The notes beneath the pieces were generated by a model. The model had not been told where the DNA came from. It worked only from the letters and a program-made list of their open reading frames with translations, and ran no database searches. The translations under genes were made by a program, and so were the position numbers. Positions 92-10,950 of a stretch of DNA of 10,950 nt are shown here, in pieces; the stretch's first letter is position 1; every line of letters begins with the position of its first letter. Source of the DNA: Firmicutes bacterium UBA3941 (GTDB taxonomy: Bacteria; Bacillota; Clostridia; Caldicoprobacterales; UBA3941); assembly GCA_002385665.1 (NCBI GenBank), contig DGDX01000091.1, forward strand, positions 1 through 10,950. The letters run 5' to 3'.

Positions 92-144
92 TTACACAAA
101 AACTTTATAAGTTGTGCGAACATACATTCGATTTTTGATTGATT

Positions 145-173
145 TTGATAGTCATATAGGATACAATTATTAT
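145..173 (+). promoter_or_regulatory. Sigma-A promoter of the TerB-ATPase-helicase operon
   Basis: TTGATA (145-150, 5 of 6) and TATTAT (168-173, 5 of 6) are separated by exactly 17 bases, close to the ideal housekeeping promoter. Transcription would start near 180 and leave a leader of about 65 bases before the TTG start at 247. It is the only strong promoter seen before the operon, and the next two genes follow with a 4-base overlap and an 11-base gap, so it probably drives all three. Confidence 0.6.
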
Positions 174-232: not shown

Positions 233-240
233 AAGGCGGT
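233..240 (+). promoter_or_regulatory. Ribosome binding site that supports a TTG start
   Basis: AAGGCGGT lies 6 bases before the TTG codon at 247. Nearly the same string (AAGGCGGTG, 2998-3006) precedes the ATG of the helicase gene at 3011. The match supports the TTG as the real start of the first gene. Confidence 0.6.
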
Positions 241-246
241 GGTATT

Positions 247-1686
247 TTGAGCAATTCAAAGCGATTTGAAAATCTAATAAACACAATAGTCTACAAGGAT
301 GAACCCATCCTTACAACGGCTGCTGATCTTTTGGAATTTACACCTCCCAGATACCGCCAAATGCGCCGAATTGCCAAGGAGAATCGCATTTACCTGGAAA
401 CGGACCCAGCCATCTTTTATAAACAGGGCAAGTTTATGGAGGATTTCCAGGATAATTATGAATACACCGGTGAGTTTTTTAGGTATTACCCGACATACCA
501 ATCCATGAGCGATCGACAATTGCGGGGATATTTTACCTGGCGTACCAAGGTCAGGCAGGGGATAATTGAAAGGACATCCCTCTCCTTTGTTTTTGTGTAC
601 ATATATGAACTTATAAACGGCATCGGTATTGATTCACCTATGGATGGTTACATCAAGCTGAAAACCCTATGGGAGGCCTATAGCCCCATCGAACCCAAGA
701 TTAATCGCTATCTGGCCCAATGGCTGAAGGATTATGTAATCTATTATAACCTGGATAAATCCTTACTGGAAAATATACCGGGAATGGGCTTTAATAATGC
801 CGCTGCCATTTTATTGGACTACAGATCCCATGAACCTGAGGAGGTTTTTAGTGCCCTAAACTCCCTTTCCCCCTATAACTTGGAGAACTCCAGCTTTTAT
901 ATGCAATATCCCGATGACGTCAGGTATGTGGTCTATCATGTCTTTGACTACTTATCCCAATACCACACCAAACACCGCAAGAACAGCCTCCTGGAGAAGT
1001 TCTTTGGTAAAGTGTTTGAAAGCGATTATTCAATATTTAATTCGGCAATATTTTGTAATCCCTTAAAGATCAAGGACGCAACTTATGAGATCAGTCGGGC
1101 ACATAGGTTTAGGTGTCGCAACGGTAGATGGAGTGAGGAGAGGTTTTTCCATTACAAGGATAAGAACAGGGAGATTGGGAAACTCTTAAAAGCTATCGAT
1201 TTTGTTATGAGAAAGCATTATGGCTTTAGATATAGCCTAAAGGTGGATAATATAACCAAGTTGTACACTAAAACCATCCTGGATGCCATCGAAAGCCTGG
1301 AACAGGATAAGAAAAGACGGGCCCGGGCTGAGGTAAAAATCGATGTTTCCAAGCTGGATGGCATAAGATCTTCCGCTTTGGCAACCCAGGAAAGGCTCAT
1401 CACCGAAAGCGACCTGGAGGATGACATCCCGGAGGTTGTGACTCCTGTGGATGAATTAAATCCCTGTAACCTGACCACCATGGAATACGAATTTGTCAAA
1501 TGCCTTTTAGCAGGAGAGGATTACCAGGATTTGCTCAATAACAGTGGAATTATGGAATCAGTCATTGTAGACAGCATCAACGAGAAGCTCTTTGAAATCT
1601 TTGATGACAACGTAATCGATTTTAATGGCCTAAGATATGAGGTCTATGAGGATTATCTAGAAGAATTGAAAGGAATATTTATATGA
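247..1686 (+). CDS. TerB-N/TerB-C domain protein of a DNA-processing module
   Basis: This 479-residue cytosolic protein has no signal peptide and no clear membrane segment. Residues about 70-220 resemble the TerB-N domain: a YPTYQSMSDRQLRGYF stretch at 81-96, WRTKVRQG at 98-105, YIYELINGIG at 118-127 and LWEAY at 141-145. Residues about 355-479 resemble TerB-C, with KIDVSKLDGIR at 364-374, SINEKLFEIFDDNVID at 443-458 and a YEDYLEEL ending. The middle carries a basic/aromatic HRFRCRNGRW patch (286-295), and I see no TerB core there. TerB-N/TerB-C proteins are known from comparative genomics of Ter-linked stress systems and occur beside helicases and ATPases; they have no catalytic motif and are thought to be scaffolds or sensors. 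The start is TTG with a good ribosome site. The TGA stop overlaps the next ATG by four bases, so its product is probably made together with the ATPase. The domain call is from recognised motifs, not a search. Confidence 0.8.
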   Translation: MSNSKRFENLINTIVYKDEPILTTAADLLEFTPPRYRQMRRIAKENRIYLETDPAIFYKQGKFMEDFQDNYEYTGEFFRYYPTYQSMSDRQLRGYFTWRTKVRQGIIERTSLSFVFVYIYELINGIGIDSPMDGYIKLKTLWEAYSPIEPKINRYLAQWLKDYVIYYNLDKSLLENIPGMGFNNAAAILLDYRSHEPEEVFSALNSLSPYNLENSSFYMQYPDDVRYVVYHVFDYLSQYHTKHRKNSLLEKFFGKVFESDYSIFNSAIFCNPLKIKDATYEISRAHRFRCRNGRWSEERFFHYKDKNREIGKLLKAIDFVMRKHYGFRYSLKVDNITKLYTKTILDAIESLEQDKKRRARAEVKIDVSKLDGIRSSALATQERLITESDLEDDIPEVVTPVDELNPCNLTTMEYEFVKCLLAGEDYQDLLNNSGIMESVIVDSINEKLFEIFDDNVIDFNGLRYEVYEDYLEELKGIFI

Positions 1687-2999
1687 AAGTACCAAGGAGA
1701 GTAGCCCAGGTTCTAATAAACTCGTTAAAGGGAGGTGTTGTCCCCAGGATTGGCCTGCCCTATATTACAGTTGGCCGTGAAGCTGAGATAAATGCCCTTT
1801 TGCACGATATAGGCATCGTTGGGGAGGGTGGAGCATCCTTTCGCTTTATCATGGGCAAGTACGGCAGCGGTAAAAGCTTTTTGCTCCAGGCAATCCGAAA
1901 CTATGCCATGGATAAGAATTTTGTCGTAGTGGATTGCGACCTCTCTACAGAGAGGCGGTTACAGGGAACCAGGGGACAAGGTCTGGCTACATACAAGGAG
2001 CTTATCCGGAACATGTCCACAAAGACAAGGCCTGAGGGCGGGGCCCTAACCCTTATCCTGGATCGATGGCTCAGCAATGTTCAGGCCCAGGTAATGAAGG
2101 AGAGCGGTCTTTCCTATAAGGATCCGGGATTTTCCAACCTTGTGGAAAGGAAGATCTTCGAAGTCATAGATGAGCTTCATGAAATGGTCCATGGTTTCGA
2201 TTTTGCCAAGCTCCTGGGAATCTACTATTCTGCCTATATAAACGGTCAGGAAGCGGAAAAGGCCAAGGTAATAAAATGGTTCCGGGGCGAATACACCAAT
2301 AAGACCGAGGCCAGGGCCGAGCTGGGGGTCAATATAGTCATTACCGATGACGATTGGTATGAATACATTAAGCTCTTTGCCATGTTCCTGAAAAAAGCCG
2401 GATATAGCGGCCTTCTGATCCTGATTGACGAGCTTGTCAACATCTATAAGATCCCCAACAGCATATCAAGACAGTATAACTATGAAAAGATACTCACCAT
2501 GTACAACGATACCCTCCAGGGCAAGGCCCGATATATGGGGATCATCATGAGTGGAACCCCGCAGTGCATTGAGGATAGGCGAAGGGGCCTATACAGCTAT
2601 GAAGCCTTGAGATCCCGCCTCCAGGAGGGCAGATTCGGCCAGGAAAATCTGGTGGACTTTTTAGCACCGATTATAAGGCTTTCGCCCCTTACCAGCGAAG
2701 AGATGCTGGTTCTCATAGAAAAGCTGTTACAAATTCACAGCGGTCTCTTTGGCTATAAGCCTACCCTAACCCAGGAGGATCTTATCAATTTTATCAAAAT
2801 CGAATTCAGTCGAATAGGGGCGGATATAAACATTACTCCCAGGGAGGTTATACGGGATTTTATTGAGCTTTTAAATATAGTCTATCAAAATCCCGATGTT
2901 GATGTCACAGCCCTCCTTAATTCAGATAAGTTCGAATATGCCAAAGGTGAATTAGACGAAGAACCTCTGGAAAAAACCTTTGAAGAATTTGAAATATAA
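1683..2999 (+). CDS. BrxD-like P-loop ATPase (DUF2791 family)
   Basis: This 438-residue protein is an AAA-like ATPase. The Walker A loop GKYGSGKS is at 58-65, a Walker B LLILIDE at 244-250, and a sensor-1-like strand ending in SGTPQ at 290-294. A TPREVIRDFIELLN segment at 385-398 is typical of the C-terminal part of the family. The GREAEI stretch at 31-36 resembles the box before the P-loop in ORC/Cdc6-like ATPases. This set of features matches the DUF2791/BrxD family, whose members are paired with an Lhr-like helicase in type 2 BREX phage defence. The long insert between the Walker motifs (about 90-240), rich in charged residues, is also usual for the family. It overlaps the TerB-N/TerB-C gene by four bases (ATGA) and is followed after 11 bases by the helicase gene, so the three products are likely to act as one complex on DNA. 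The acidic tail (421-438) is probably flexible. DUF2791/BrxD membership is a confident call; the biological role is inferred. Confidence 0.82.
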   Translation: MKVPRRVAQVLINSLKGGVVPRIGLPYITVGREAEINALLHDIGIVGEGGASFRFIMGKYGSGKSFLLQAIRNYAMDKNFVVVDCDLSTERRLQGTRGQGLATYKELIRNMSTKTRPEGGALTLILDRWLSNVQAQVMKESGLSYKDPGFSNLVERKIFEVIDELHEMVHGFDFAKLLGIYYSAYINGQEAEKAKVIKWFRGEYTNKTEARAELGVNIVITDDDWYEYIKLFAMFLKKAGYSGLLILIDELVNIYKIPNSISRQYNYEKILTMYNDTLQGKARYMGIIMSGTPQCIEDRRRGLYSYEALRSRLQEGRFGQENLVDFLAPIIRLSPLTSEEMLVLIEKLLQIHSGLFGYKPTLTQEDLINFIKIEFSRIGADINITPREVIRDFIELLNIVYQNPDVDVTALLNSDKFEYAKGELDEEPLEKTFEEFEI

Positions 3000-3010
3000 G
3001 GCGGTGCAAG

Positions 3011-5236
3011 ATGAATATTTACAACCGCTACGCACCCTTTATCAGGGATTTTATCTATCAAAACAACTGGGAATCCCTGCGGGCAGTTCAGGTTGCCGCA
3101 GGGGATATAATCTTTAATACGGATCATAACCTTTTATTATCCGCTTCTACCGCTTCAGGTAAAACGGAAGCGGCCTTCTTCCCCATATTAACCCTGTTTT
3201 ATGAGGATCCGCCAAAATCCGTAGGTGCCCTGTACATCGGCCCCTTAAAAGCCCTCATCAATGACCAGTTTATGCGGCTCAACGATCTTTGCAGGGAGGC
3301 CGATATCCCCGTCTGGCATTGGCATGGGGATGTAGCCCAGTCCCATAAGGAAAAATTGCAAAAAAACCCCTCCGGCATCCTCCAGATCACTCCGGAATCC
3401 TTGGAGGCCCTGCTTATGCGCAGACACTCTTATATTCCAAAGCTCTTCTCCGATCTGCGCTTTATCGTTATAGACGAGATCCATTCTCTGATGCGGGGAG
3501 ATCGGGGCGGCCAAACCCTATGCTTAATCCAGCGTCTATCACAACTCGCCGGAGTAAATCCCCGGAGGATAGGTCTTTCGGCAACCATTGGGGATCTGGA
3601 AGCTGCGGGTGCCTTTTTATCGAGAGGAACGGGGCGGAGTACGGCTGCCCCACAGATCTCCGTCAAGGGAACGAAATGGCGGCTCTCCATGGAACACTTT
3701 TTTATTCAAAGCCAACAGGCCGGTGATGATAAGGCTATCTCGGCAGGTCTTCCTTCCGCTCCGGATATAAAAACGGATACCGCACCAGCGGCCGCCGATC
3801 CGGGGATTGGCTACATTTATGAGCATACCAGGGGTAAAAAATGCCTGGTCTTTGTTAATTCAAGGGAGGAGTGTGAAGCGGTCACCACCACCCTCAGGCA
3901 ATACTGCGAATACCAAGGTGCCCCTGATCGGTTTTTGATTCACCATGGCAACCTATCTGCCTCCTTCCGTGAAACTGCGGAAGCCATAATGAAGGACGAT
4001 GATGAGTATAGAACCACCGTAACTACGGCAACTCTGGAGTTGGGTATCGATATCGGAAGGCTTGAGAGAGCCTTTCAAATCGACGCTCCCTTCATGGTTT
4101 CCTCCTTCCTTCAAAGGATGGGAAGGACCGGCCGTAGAGGTCAGCCCCCGGAGATGTGGTTTGTCATACGGGAGGATGAGGCCGAGCCCAGGGCCATGCT
4201 GCCTGCCACCATCCCCTGGAAGCTGATCCAGGGAATTGCCCTCATCCAGCTCTATTTGGAAGAACGCTGGGTAGAGCCGCCAAACCTCAACCGACTGCCC
4301 TATAGCCTCCTGTACCATCAAACCATGAGCACTCTGGCTTCCTGCGGTGAAATGAGTCCTAAAATGCTGGCATCCAGGATCCTGTCCCTCAGCTATTTCC
4401 ACCGGATTACCCAGGATGATTACAGAACCCTCTTAAGGCACTTAATCTCCATAGATCATATTCAAAGGACGGAAAGAGGCGGGCTGATTGTGGGTCTTAC
4501 CGGGGAAAGAATAACCAACTCCTATAAGTTCTATGCAGTCTTCAAGGAGAGTGAAGAATATACCGTACGCACTAAATCCCAGGAACTGGGCACCATTGTA
4601 ATGCCGCCCCCGGTAGGTGAGAAGATAGCCATTGCCGGCCATGTATGGGTAGTGGAAGAGGTGGACTATAAACGCCGTTTGGTCTATTGTGAGCAGGTGA
4701 AGGGTAATGTCCCCGCCTATTTTGGCTTATGCCCGGGTGACATCCATACAAAGGTACTGGAAAAGATGAGGGATATATTGAAAACGGATACTGTCTATCC
4801 CTACCTAATGAGAAATGCTGTTGCCCGCCTGGCCGAAGCTCGCCATACAGCCTTTAAGTCCAGCCTTACAGAGCGGCCTCTGATCAACCTGGGCGGAGAT
4901 ATGTGGTGTCTCTTCCCCTGGCTTGGCACCTACGCCTTTCTTGCCCTGGAACGCTTTCTAAAGCTTATATGTGCAAAGGAGCTGGGCATAACTGCCCTGG
5001 ATTCCTCCCGACCCTATTTTATTCAGTTTAAGATGAAGGCCGATGAGGAAGAATTTTTCAGGACCTTAAAGGAATTAGAAAAGCTGCCCCTGGATCCAAT
5101 GGACCTTGTTTATCGGGGAGAAGTCCCTGTCTTTGAGAAATATGACGAGTTTCTACCGGAGGAACTGGTTAAGAAGGGATTTGCCTACGGTATTCTGGGT
5201 ATTGAGGAGATGAAAATGCGAATTCGCAGCTGGTAG
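3011..5236 (+). CDS. Lhr-like superfamily 2 helicase, BrxHI type
   Basis: All the SF2 helicase motifs are present in this 741-residue protein. They are a Q-motif-like LRAVQ (23-27), motif I ASTASGKT (45-52), Ia PLKALINDQ (78-86), Ib TPES (127-130), DEIH box (155-158), SAT (190-192), HHGNLS (311-316), motif V TLELGIDIG (341-349) and motif VI QRMGRTGRRG (368-377). After the two RecA lobes come a winged-helix-like part (about 400-515), a small beta-barrel-like element with GHVWVVEEVD (543-552), and an Lhr-type C-terminal domain. Proteins of this design translocate 3' to 5' on single-stranded DNA using ATP. With a BrxD-like ATPase directly upstream, the closest named relative is BrxHI of type 2 BREX. 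A polar, low-complexity insert at about 234-265 lies between the lobes. The ATG has an AAGGCGGTG ribosome site five bases upstream. The TAG stop is five bases from the folA stop on the other strand. The helicase family is certain; the substrate and role are inferred. Confidence 0.9.
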   Translation: MNIYNRYAPFIRDFIYQNNWESLRAVQVAAGDIIFNTDHNLLLSASTASGKTEAAFFPILTLFYEDPPKSVGALYIGPLKALINDQFMRLNDLCREADIPVWHWHGDVAQSHKEKLQKNPSGILQITPESLEALLMRRHSYIPKLFSDLRFIVIDEIHSLMRGDRGGQTLCLIQRLSQLAGVNPRRIGLSATIGDLEAAGAFLSRGTGRSTAAPQISVKGTKWRLSMEHFFIQSQQAGDDKAISAGLPSAPDIKTDTAPAAADPGIGYIYEHTRGKKCLVFVNSREECEAVTTTLRQYCEYQGAPDRFLIHHGNLSASFRETAEAIMKDDDEYRTTVTTATLELGIDIGRLERAFQIDAPFMVSSFLQRMGRTGRRGQPPEMWFVIREDEAEPRAMLPATIPWKLIQGIALIQLYLEERWVEPPNLNRLPYSLLYHQTMSTLASCGEMSPKMLASRILSLSYFHRITQDDYRTLLRHLISIDHIQRTERGGLIVGLTGERITNSYKFYAVFKESEEYTVRTKSQELGTIVMPPPVGEKIAIAGHVWVVEEVDYKRRLVYCEQVKGNVPAYFGLCPGDIHTKVLEKMRDILKTDTVYPYLMRNAVARLAEARHTAFKSSLTERPLINLGGDMWCLFPWLGTYAFLALERFLKLICAKELGITALDSSRPYFIQFKMKADEEEFFRTLKELEKLPLDPMDLVYRGEVPVFEKYDEFLPEELVKKGFAYGILGIEEMKMRIRSW

Positions 5237-5241
5237 CGCCG

Positions 5242-5739
5242 TTAATCCCGTTTCCTTGCCACGTATGTAAGGTACTTAAAGCTAAGGTCCTTATAATAAT
5301 GTCGTTGACTTTCCTCCACCAGCTCCCAATCCTCCATAGTGTCCAGGTTGGGAAAATGCCGGTCGGCAACAAACTCCTTTTCAAACCTTGTTACATATAC
5401 CTTTGAACAGTAGGGCAAAAGCAAGGTGTAAATGGCCTCTCCCCCTATGACAAAGATATCATCCGGAGGGTATTTTTCGAGTTCTCTAAACAGCTCCTCT
5501 GTAGAGCGGCATAGTACGAGTCCGTCGTCACTATACTGAGCAGTTTTGCTAAGGACGATATTGACCCTATCCTTAAGGGGCTTTTTCCCTGGCAGGGATT
5601 CAAGTGTTTTCCTGCCCATGACCACTACCTTGCCTGTGGTCATGGCCCTGAAGCGCTTCATATCCTCGGGGACCCGCATAAGAAGCTCTCCCCTATACCC
5701 TATTCCCCAATTTAAGTCTGCCGATAGAATCGCCTGCAT
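5242..5739 (-). CDS. folA: Dihydrofolate reductase
   Basis: This 165-residue cytosolic enzyme reduces dihydrofolate to tetrahydrofolate with NADPH, recycling the dihydrofolate made by ThyA. Length and layout are those of ordinary bacterial DHFR. Residues that line up with Escherichia coli DHFR are catalytic Asp27 at D26 (in VPEDMKRF), Phe31 at F30, the folate glutamate-binding Arg57 at R58, and Thr113 at T117. The NADPH-binding GRKT (42-45) and VIGGEAIY (97-104) are intact. The position of E. coli Trp22 is Met21, so that conserved side chain is missing. The ATG at 5739 follows a strong GGGAAGGTGA ribosome site seven bases upstream. It lies 137 bases downstream of thyA on the same strand, and no clear promoter is seen between them, so the two are probably co-transcribed. 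Family identity is certain. Confidence 0.96.
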   Translation of the reverse strand: MQAILSADLNWGIGYRGELLMRVPEDMKRFRAMTTGKVVVMGRKTLESLPGKKPLKDRVNIVLSKTAQYSDDGLVLCRSTEELFRELEKYPPDDIFVIGGEAIYTLLLPYCSKVYVTRFEKEFVADRHFPNLDTMEDWELVEESQRHYYKDLSFKYLTYVARKRD

Positions 5740-10931: not shown

Positions 10932-10950
10932 CTGTCTCTTATACACATCT
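10932..10950. other. Tn5/Nextera mosaic-end adapter (sequencing artefact)
   Basis: The final 19 bases, CTGTCTCTTATACACATCT, are identical over their whole length to the reverse complement of the Tn5 mosaic end used in Nextera libraries. They follow directly after coding sequence of the peptidase gene and break it. This is untrimmed adapter and not genomic sequence. Confidence 0.96.

Follow-up and report, generated by a model that had tools for sequence, protein, structure and literature searches.

The 10,950-bp stretch analysed here (the window) is an entire contig, DGDX01000091.1, of the draft genome of Firmicutes bacterium UBA3941 (G000:C47:1-10950; genome 83% complete). At positions 247-5236, it carries three close-packed genes on the forward strand, separated by a 4-base overlap and then an 11-base gap. 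Based on family models, gene order, phylogenetic trees and intact motifs, this operon is almost certainly a complete Shango system (sngABC). The system is known, and the window copy is a further member of it. According to PMC10250203, Shango is a three-gene system of a TerB protein, an ATPase and a helicase from the P. aeruginosa hotspot cDHS1, which cut plating 10-100-fold for many, but not all, of the phages tested; an earlier report of Shango in E. coli is credited in the same article. By analogy with the published activity of the Pseudomonas aeruginosa copy, the window operon very probably functions in anti-phage defence. Taken as a whole, a complete Shango operon working through a recogniser-loader-motor mechanism is the explanation that we, on balance, prefer.

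Identification of the operon as Shango

All three proteins, SngA, SngB and SngC, have a Shango model as their best PADLOC match. SngA matches PDLC03958 alone (E 3.9e-76, profile positions 65-526 of 528). SngB matches the Shango SngB model (5.3e-190, 630 bits), with BrxD in second place (2.1e-45, 154 bits), and SngC matches the Shango SngC model (1.3e-277, 921 bits), with BrxHI second (1e-117, 392 bits). The genes are adjacent and follow the A-B-C order, as in Shango.

BrxD and BrxHI belong to BREX (bacteriophage exclusion), and the initial annotation had pointed to a comparison of the ATPase and the helicase with them in trees. In a tree of 31 SngB/BrxD proteins, the Shango sequences are separated from the BREX-like rows with support of 100/100, and in a tree of 28 SngC/BrxHI proteins with support of 100/99. 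The BREX side of both trees is small, with four BrxD-like rows (three checked by PADLOC) and three adjoining helicases labelled by position alone, and several SngC rows of the second tree are long branches. The nearest named SngB relatives belong to the Oscillospiraceae.

Because of the PADLOC scores, the trees and the published description of Shango, we regard the window trio as a member of this known system, and not as the undescribed stand-alone machine that the initial annotation had proposed. Other parts of that annotation held. The three packed genes, their overlap and gap, and their assignment to a TerB-N/C protein, an ATPase and an Lhr-like helicase agree with the open reading frames (ORFs) and with Pfam. 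The kinship with BrxD and BrxHI reappears as the second-best PADLOC matches, and the guess at phage defence is borne out to the extent that the trio is Shango, whose Pseudomonas copy was tested against phages (PMC10250203).

Gene layout, motifs and start signals

The features of the operon, all on the forward strand, are as follows.

139..167, + strand: promoter-like site TTGATT-17-TACAAT, a 9-of-12 match whose two hexamers are unchanged in the same-genus relative; the count of such sites is not above chance
233..241, + strand: Shine-Dalgarno-like AAGGCGGTG, 5 bases upstream of the sngA TTG start
247..1686, + strand: sngA, TerB-N/TerB-C protein of 479 amino acids, TTG start, compact, without the Pfam TerB domain (PDLC03958, 3.9e-76)
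385..885, + strand: TerB_N domain, SngA residues 47-213 (Pfam, 1.1e-39)
1303..1671, + strand: TerB_C domain, SngA residues 353-475 (Pfam, 6.9e-19)
1477..1680, + strand: predicted winged-helix-like fold at the SngA C-terminus, residues 411-478 (structure model)
1683..2999, + strand: sngB, AAA+ ATPase of 438 amino acids (Pfam BrxC_BrxD, 4.2e-168; PDLC03959, 5.3e-190)
1854..1877, + strand: SngB Walker A, GKYGSGKS, residues 58-65; invariant at G58 and Y60-S65 in alignments of 8 and of 22 SngB proteins
2412..2432, + strand: SngB Walker B, LLILIDE, residues 244-250; invariant at D249 and E250 in alignments of 8 and of 22 SngB proteins
3011..5236, + strand: sngC, superfamily 2 (SF2) DExH helicase, BrxHI/Lhr-like, 741 amino acids (DEAD, 1.8e-26; Helicase_C, 1.4e-15; PDLC03960, 1.3e-277)
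3149..3172, + strand: SngC helicase motif I, TASGKTEA, residues 47-54
3473..3484, + strand: SngC helicase motif II, DEIH, residues 155-158
4112..4141, + strand: SngC helicase motif VI, QRMGRTGRRG, residues 368-377

The Pfam matches of all three proteins exceed the curated cut-offs. In the window SngA, Pfam TerB (PF05099) gave no match at E 0.001, and the TerB_N domain carries the conserved residues Y95, F96, W98, R99 and R103 together with Y120, E121 and L122. Walker A and Walker B of SngB are present and conserved across 8 aligned SngB proteins, and motifs I, II (DEIH), III (SAT) and VI of SngC are present and conserved across 9 aligned SngC proteins. Judging from these intact motifs, the window system is apparently functional.

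The same AAGGCGGTG letters also precede sngC (positions 2998-3006), and the sngA TTG start and its Shine-Dalgarno-like stretch are identical in the same-genus relative. The initial annotation had assigned the operon one strong promoter. Promoter-like sites do lie upstream of sngA, the top one on the forward strand being a 10-of-12 match at positions 145-173, but their strength was not borne out: a scan of bases 1-1000 on both strands returned 5 sites versus 3.6 +/- 2.0 in shuffled sequences, and the conserved site is just a 9-of-12 match. No RNA family was detected in the window at the gathering score.

Distribution of Shango loci

Scanning named genomes with SngB returned at least 544 confirmed relatives, and the closest 80 were used as the locus set. 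SngA was found in 79 of these loci, and A, B and C occur in order in 73, seven of which have their B and C hits over 400 bases apart. Four of the seven loci without the full trio are cut by a contig end; the other three are L076, L090 and L097. One to four passenger ORFs, some of them NUDIX-like or acetyltransferase-like by eye, lie between sngB and sngC in L050, L064, L072 and L104.

The SngB query matched 17 of 148 genomes, the window genome included. Based on the neighbouring genes, nine of the 17 hold Shango sets (the window genome, G001, G030, G104, G038, G110, G029, G031 and G056), the set of G029 being divided between two contigs. Four others (G007, G108, G081 and G082) have a BrxD-like gene adjoining an SngC-related helicase, and no trio was present within the stretches fetched from G107, G134, G049 and G112. 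The ATPases of G107 (L010) and G134 (L014) are about equidistant from BrxD and SngB (230 vs 226 and 222 vs 210 bits, respectively) and form their own group in the tree, with no SngA or SngC match in the fetched 4.2 kb. At the family level, two of six genomes carry Shango. The SngA model, at a threshold of 1e-20, matched 23 of 398 genomes of the phylum (the window genome counted) and 0 of 14 control genomes. Eighteen of the 23 same-phylum regions were fetched (G000, G030, G219, G469 and G510 were left out); 17 hold a contiguous A-B-C set, and in the 18th the contig end falls after SngA.

Two loci, L033 (4186-10109, G031) and L037 (8986-15133, G056), present an A-B-C-C' variant with two tandem SngC-like helicases after SngB. 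The second copy is split over two frames in G056 and reaches the contig end in G031, and the C' of G031 branches beside the first-copy SngC of G031 and G056 in the tree. A weak search, limited to at most two candidates per genome at E 1e-60, found no further case in the 398 phylum genomes.

Shango also resides on plasmids. Among 72,556 plasmid records, 692 match SngB; 449 of them are from Klebsiella, and 542 records are typed as conjugative. The five records that we opened all hold a TerB-N gene, an ATPase and a helicase. The trio is contiguous on the Paenibacillus, Aeromonas, Klebsiella and Natrinema (an archaeon) plasmids, and the set is scattered on the Burkholderia plasmid, where the TerB and ATPase genes are separated by several others. 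On the Klebsiella plasmid NZ_CP037966.1 (L125), a conjugative IncFIB/IncFII plasmid, the set is located between the lac operon and repA; on the Natrinema plasmid (L126, 12727-18217), genes for a metallophosphoesterase, an SMC-type ATPase and NurA come after the trio. Carriage by phages was rejected: 50,697 phage records searched with SngB gave no match, and 110 pattern matches from viral contigs yielded no confirmed case.

Evolutionary rates of the three subunits

Between the window and the same-genus genome G001, the ratio of nonsynonymous to synonymous substitution rates (dN/dS) was 0.193 for SngA and 0.039 for SngB; SngC, measured in two parts, gave 0.053 and 0.079. For the five flanking genes, the ratio ranged from 0.05 to 0.15. 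Selection on sngABC is purifying, and these ratios, coming from one genome pair, cannot show positive selection. A broader comparison comprised 58 trios: that of the window, those of 6 relatives, 5 from plasmids (the scattered Burkholderia set included) and 46 retained from the 80 loci after filtering by length. The mean pairwise identity was 0.29 for SngA, 0.66 for SngB and 0.63 for SngC, and SngA had the lowest identity of the three in every pair (1653 of 1653). SngA distances track those of its partners (Mantel r of 0.875 with SngB and 0.868 with SngC; 0.966 between SngB and SngC).

When window positions 247-5739 were compared with L028 and L038, the synonymous rate (dS) of sngA-C and the adjoining dihydrofolate reductase (DHFR) gene was 0.14-0.30, below the 0.37-0.50 of the thymidylate synthase (ThyA) and energy-coupling factor (ECF) transporter genes. 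The lower dS possibly reflects a recent exchange of the sngA-C and DHFR segment between two species.

Architecture and structural models

The architecture of SngA varies among the ten copies scanned. A TM2 domain is present in the Natrinema copy and in two (L164 and L166) of the three divergent copies from the same phylum. Four other copies seem to be extended considerably at the N-terminus, with no Pfam match there and with start codons that are not established. The TM2-bearing copies (L164, L166 and L126) suggest a membrane-anchored form of Shango.

The SngA model shows a C-terminal winged-helix-like domain. No solved relative of SngA was found by sequence at E 0.1, and Foldseek returned no PDB match at E 0.001, most of the fold being barely tested; viral structures gave no match at E 0.001 either. 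The SngB model appears nearest to the Orc1/Cdc6 ATPases, with 8-18% identity in the structural alignments, and some unrelated AAA+ proteins score no lower than TnsC.

Genomic setting

The rest of the window encodes DHFR, ThyA and an ECF transporter S-A-T set, five Pfam-scanned proteins of which none is a defence protein, and, as read from the sequence, the beginning of an M20-like peptidase. The contig ends at positions 10932-10950 in CTGTCTCTTATACACATCT, which we take to be a Nextera/Tn5 adapter; this end is probably an artefact of assembly, truncating the last (peptidase-like) gene. At the opposite end, positions 1-50 of the reverse strand hold a small divergent cysteine-rich zinc-ribbon-like ORF upstream of sngA, likewise truncated where the contig stops. 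In the relative L028 (4210-4392), this ORF is 60 amino acids long, with a tRNA-Arg beyond it.

In the same-genus genome G001, the trio is located at the same place, adjoining the DHFR, ThyA and ECF genes. The same-family genome G004 has DHFR and ThyA without the trio, as do G003 and G005 with their more distant DHFR-ThyA pairs. The neighbours of other Shango loci are mostly housekeeping-like by eye. Clustering the 760 neighbour ORFs of the 80 loci yielded no recurring family that we recognised by eye as defence; the commonest cluster, ABC-transporter-like by eye, occurs in 18 of the 80 loci and the next in 9.

A defence-neighbour test was based on at most eight nearest ORFs per Shango locus at 17 loci (129 of the 201 neighbour ORFs of 18 regions), with controls of 128 of 229 ORFs from 14 stretches in nine genomes that also hold Shango. 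At 1e-10, 75 PADLOC families were matched on the Shango side versus 71 on the control side, in a small sample counting families and not genes. Among the 25 families listed for each side, the Shango side includes HamA, HamB, AbiA and Stk2 once each and two members of MkoA, and the control side includes reverse-transcriptase, Cas1_IIIb, RecD-like, TerY and candidate families.

Proposed mechanism and alternative explanations

We tentatively order the subunits as recogniser (SngA), loader (SngB) and motor (SngC), an assignment that we hold as possible. SngA would be the recognition and adaptor subunit, touching invader DNA or a DNA-bound phage factor; we place it in this role because of its fast-changing sequence, its variable N-terminal additions and its terminal winged-helix-like domain. 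SngB, an AAA+ ATPase apparently nearest to Orc1/Cdc6, would assemble on DNA when SngA calls and, acting like a helicase loader, would place or activate SngC. This Lhr/BrxHI-like SF2 motor would unwind or strip the invader DNA, whereby phage replication would be blocked. No nuclease motif was seen in SngA, SngB or SngC. In BREX, BrxD has been proposed as a possible loader of BrxHI, as stated in PMC12839542. The initial annotation had given the TerB-N/C protein the place of sensor or scaffold, and the rate, model and architecture comparisons would fit such a role.

Three points weigh against this mechanism: the fast rate of SngA need not mean recognition, the predicted structures are single chains, and SngA may hide an effector, some acidic residues being well kept in the closer SngA set. 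A more elaborate form, to which we give less credit than to the subunit order itself, would make Shango a DNA machine that works in three steps without a nuclease, on the plan of a transposon target selector or a replication loader. In it, a fast-evolving, exchangeable SngA, membrane-anchored in some lineages, would pick the invader, SngB would be a DNA-wrapping matchmaker of the Orc1/Cdc6/TnsC type, and the SngC motor would dismantle the replication of the invader.

A nuclease or toxin effector hidden in SngA, with SngB and SngC as sensor and regulator in the way that HamB restrains HamA in Hachiman, is an unlikely alternative with a precedent, given that a sensor helicase and a separate effector are described for Hachiman in PMC12278908. 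SngA is the sole subunit without an assigned activity, and among the 46 closer SngA proteins D69, E121, D318, E413, D454 and D469 are each conserved in 90% or more. Across all 58 SngA proteins, however, most positions conserved at this level carry aromatic or hydrophobic residues, Pro/Gly or Arg, and the remaining acidic ones are E121 and D454, separated by 333 residues; inspection of the 58 by eye revealed no known nuclease motif, and SngA matches no Pfam family beyond TerB_N and TerB_C and no second PADLOC family. Less likely again is an operon whose main targets are plasmids or other incoming DNA and for which phage defence is a side effect. According to PMC11096173, Shango shares some E. 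coli genomic islands with ApsAB, of which ApsA is a helicase-nuclease, but the Shango activity reported in PMC10250203 was tested against phages. The plasmid-borne Shango-like sets (692 of 72,556 records) also count against this view, although their carriage is equally compatible with host defence borne on plasmids or with competition between plasmids.

Lhr-like helicases are repair enzymes, the five other window proteins are folate/thymidylate and ECF-transporter proteins, and the trio has the same location in both genomes of the genus. These observations would suit a housekeeping DNA-repair or stress operon of the lineage, which we nevertheless consider very improbable and, given the patchiness and the plasmid carriage, disfavour. 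The trio is carried by only two of the six family genomes and 23 of the 398 in the phylum sample, the two commonest neighbour clusters extend to 18 and 9 of the 80 loci, and trios occur on Klebsiella, Aeromonas, Paenibacillus and halophilic archaeal plasmids, with the scattered set on the Burkholderia plasmid. The initial annotation had named a core, vertically inherited trio beside repair genes as the opposing case; we do not regard the trio as such because its spread is patchy, it is carried on plasmids, and its neighbours in the window are metabolic and transport genes. A partial or decayed type 2 BREX locus (brxD, brxHI), joined by chance by a TerB gene, deserves hardly any credence and was rejected on the model scores and trees. 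It would explain why BrxD and BrxHI rank second for SngB and SngC, but the Shango models score far higher for both, and the Shango and BREX-like rows fall in separate tree groups. Moreover, SngA adjoins SngB in 79 of the 80 loci found by SngB alone (the 80th starts at a contig end), the motifs are intact and selection is purifying. As the initial annotation had noted, no other BREX gene lies alongside: PglX/BrxX, PglZ, BrxC and PglW are absent among the eight window proteins scanned with Pfam, and no such gene was seen by eye in the approximately 3 kb by which the same-genus contig extends further upstream than the window.

As an instance, the window copy is ordinary, one more Shango. Its possible importance lies in the comparison of one fast subunit with two slow ones and in the Orc1/Cdc6-like SngB model; the rate contrast bears on which subunit sees the phage. 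If the recogniser-loader-motor mechanism is true, SngA would set which invader Shango hits and would be exchangeable between systems. Among the papers listed by literature searches that covered Shango, none on the mechanism or on the rate contrast of SngA was seen, which is not proof of absence, and a TerB-N search returned nothing.

Comparison with known systems

The operon and the BrxD-BrxHI pair of type 2 BREX have their ATPase and helicase families in common, arranged in the same order. The operon differs from this pair in that its proteins fall in separate tree groups and a TerB-N/C protein replaces the BREX core. With the Orc1/Cdc6 and, less closely, TnsC AAA+ proteins, SngB shares a likeness of fold, not membership. 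Among solved structures, SngC best matches the Lhr-type SF2 helicases 5v9x (2.6e-24) and 7lhl (1.2e-23), both deposited as ATP-dependent DNA helicases and presumably Lhr proteins, followed by YprA (6znp). SngC differs from the Lhr type in that PMC12278908 groups it with BrxHI, DruE and DpdJ in what may be an SF2 clade restricted to defence. The closest likeness is to Shango itself, with three genes in the same order and all three proteins best matching the PADLOC Shango models. Within Shango, the SngA of the Klebsiella plasmid (769 amino acids) adds a TerB domain that the window SngA lacks, and that of the halophilic archaeon (Natrinema, L126; 829 amino acids) has an N-terminal TM2 membrane domain and a sub-threshold TerB, whereas the compact window SngA, of 479 amino acids, consists of TerB_N and TerB_C only.

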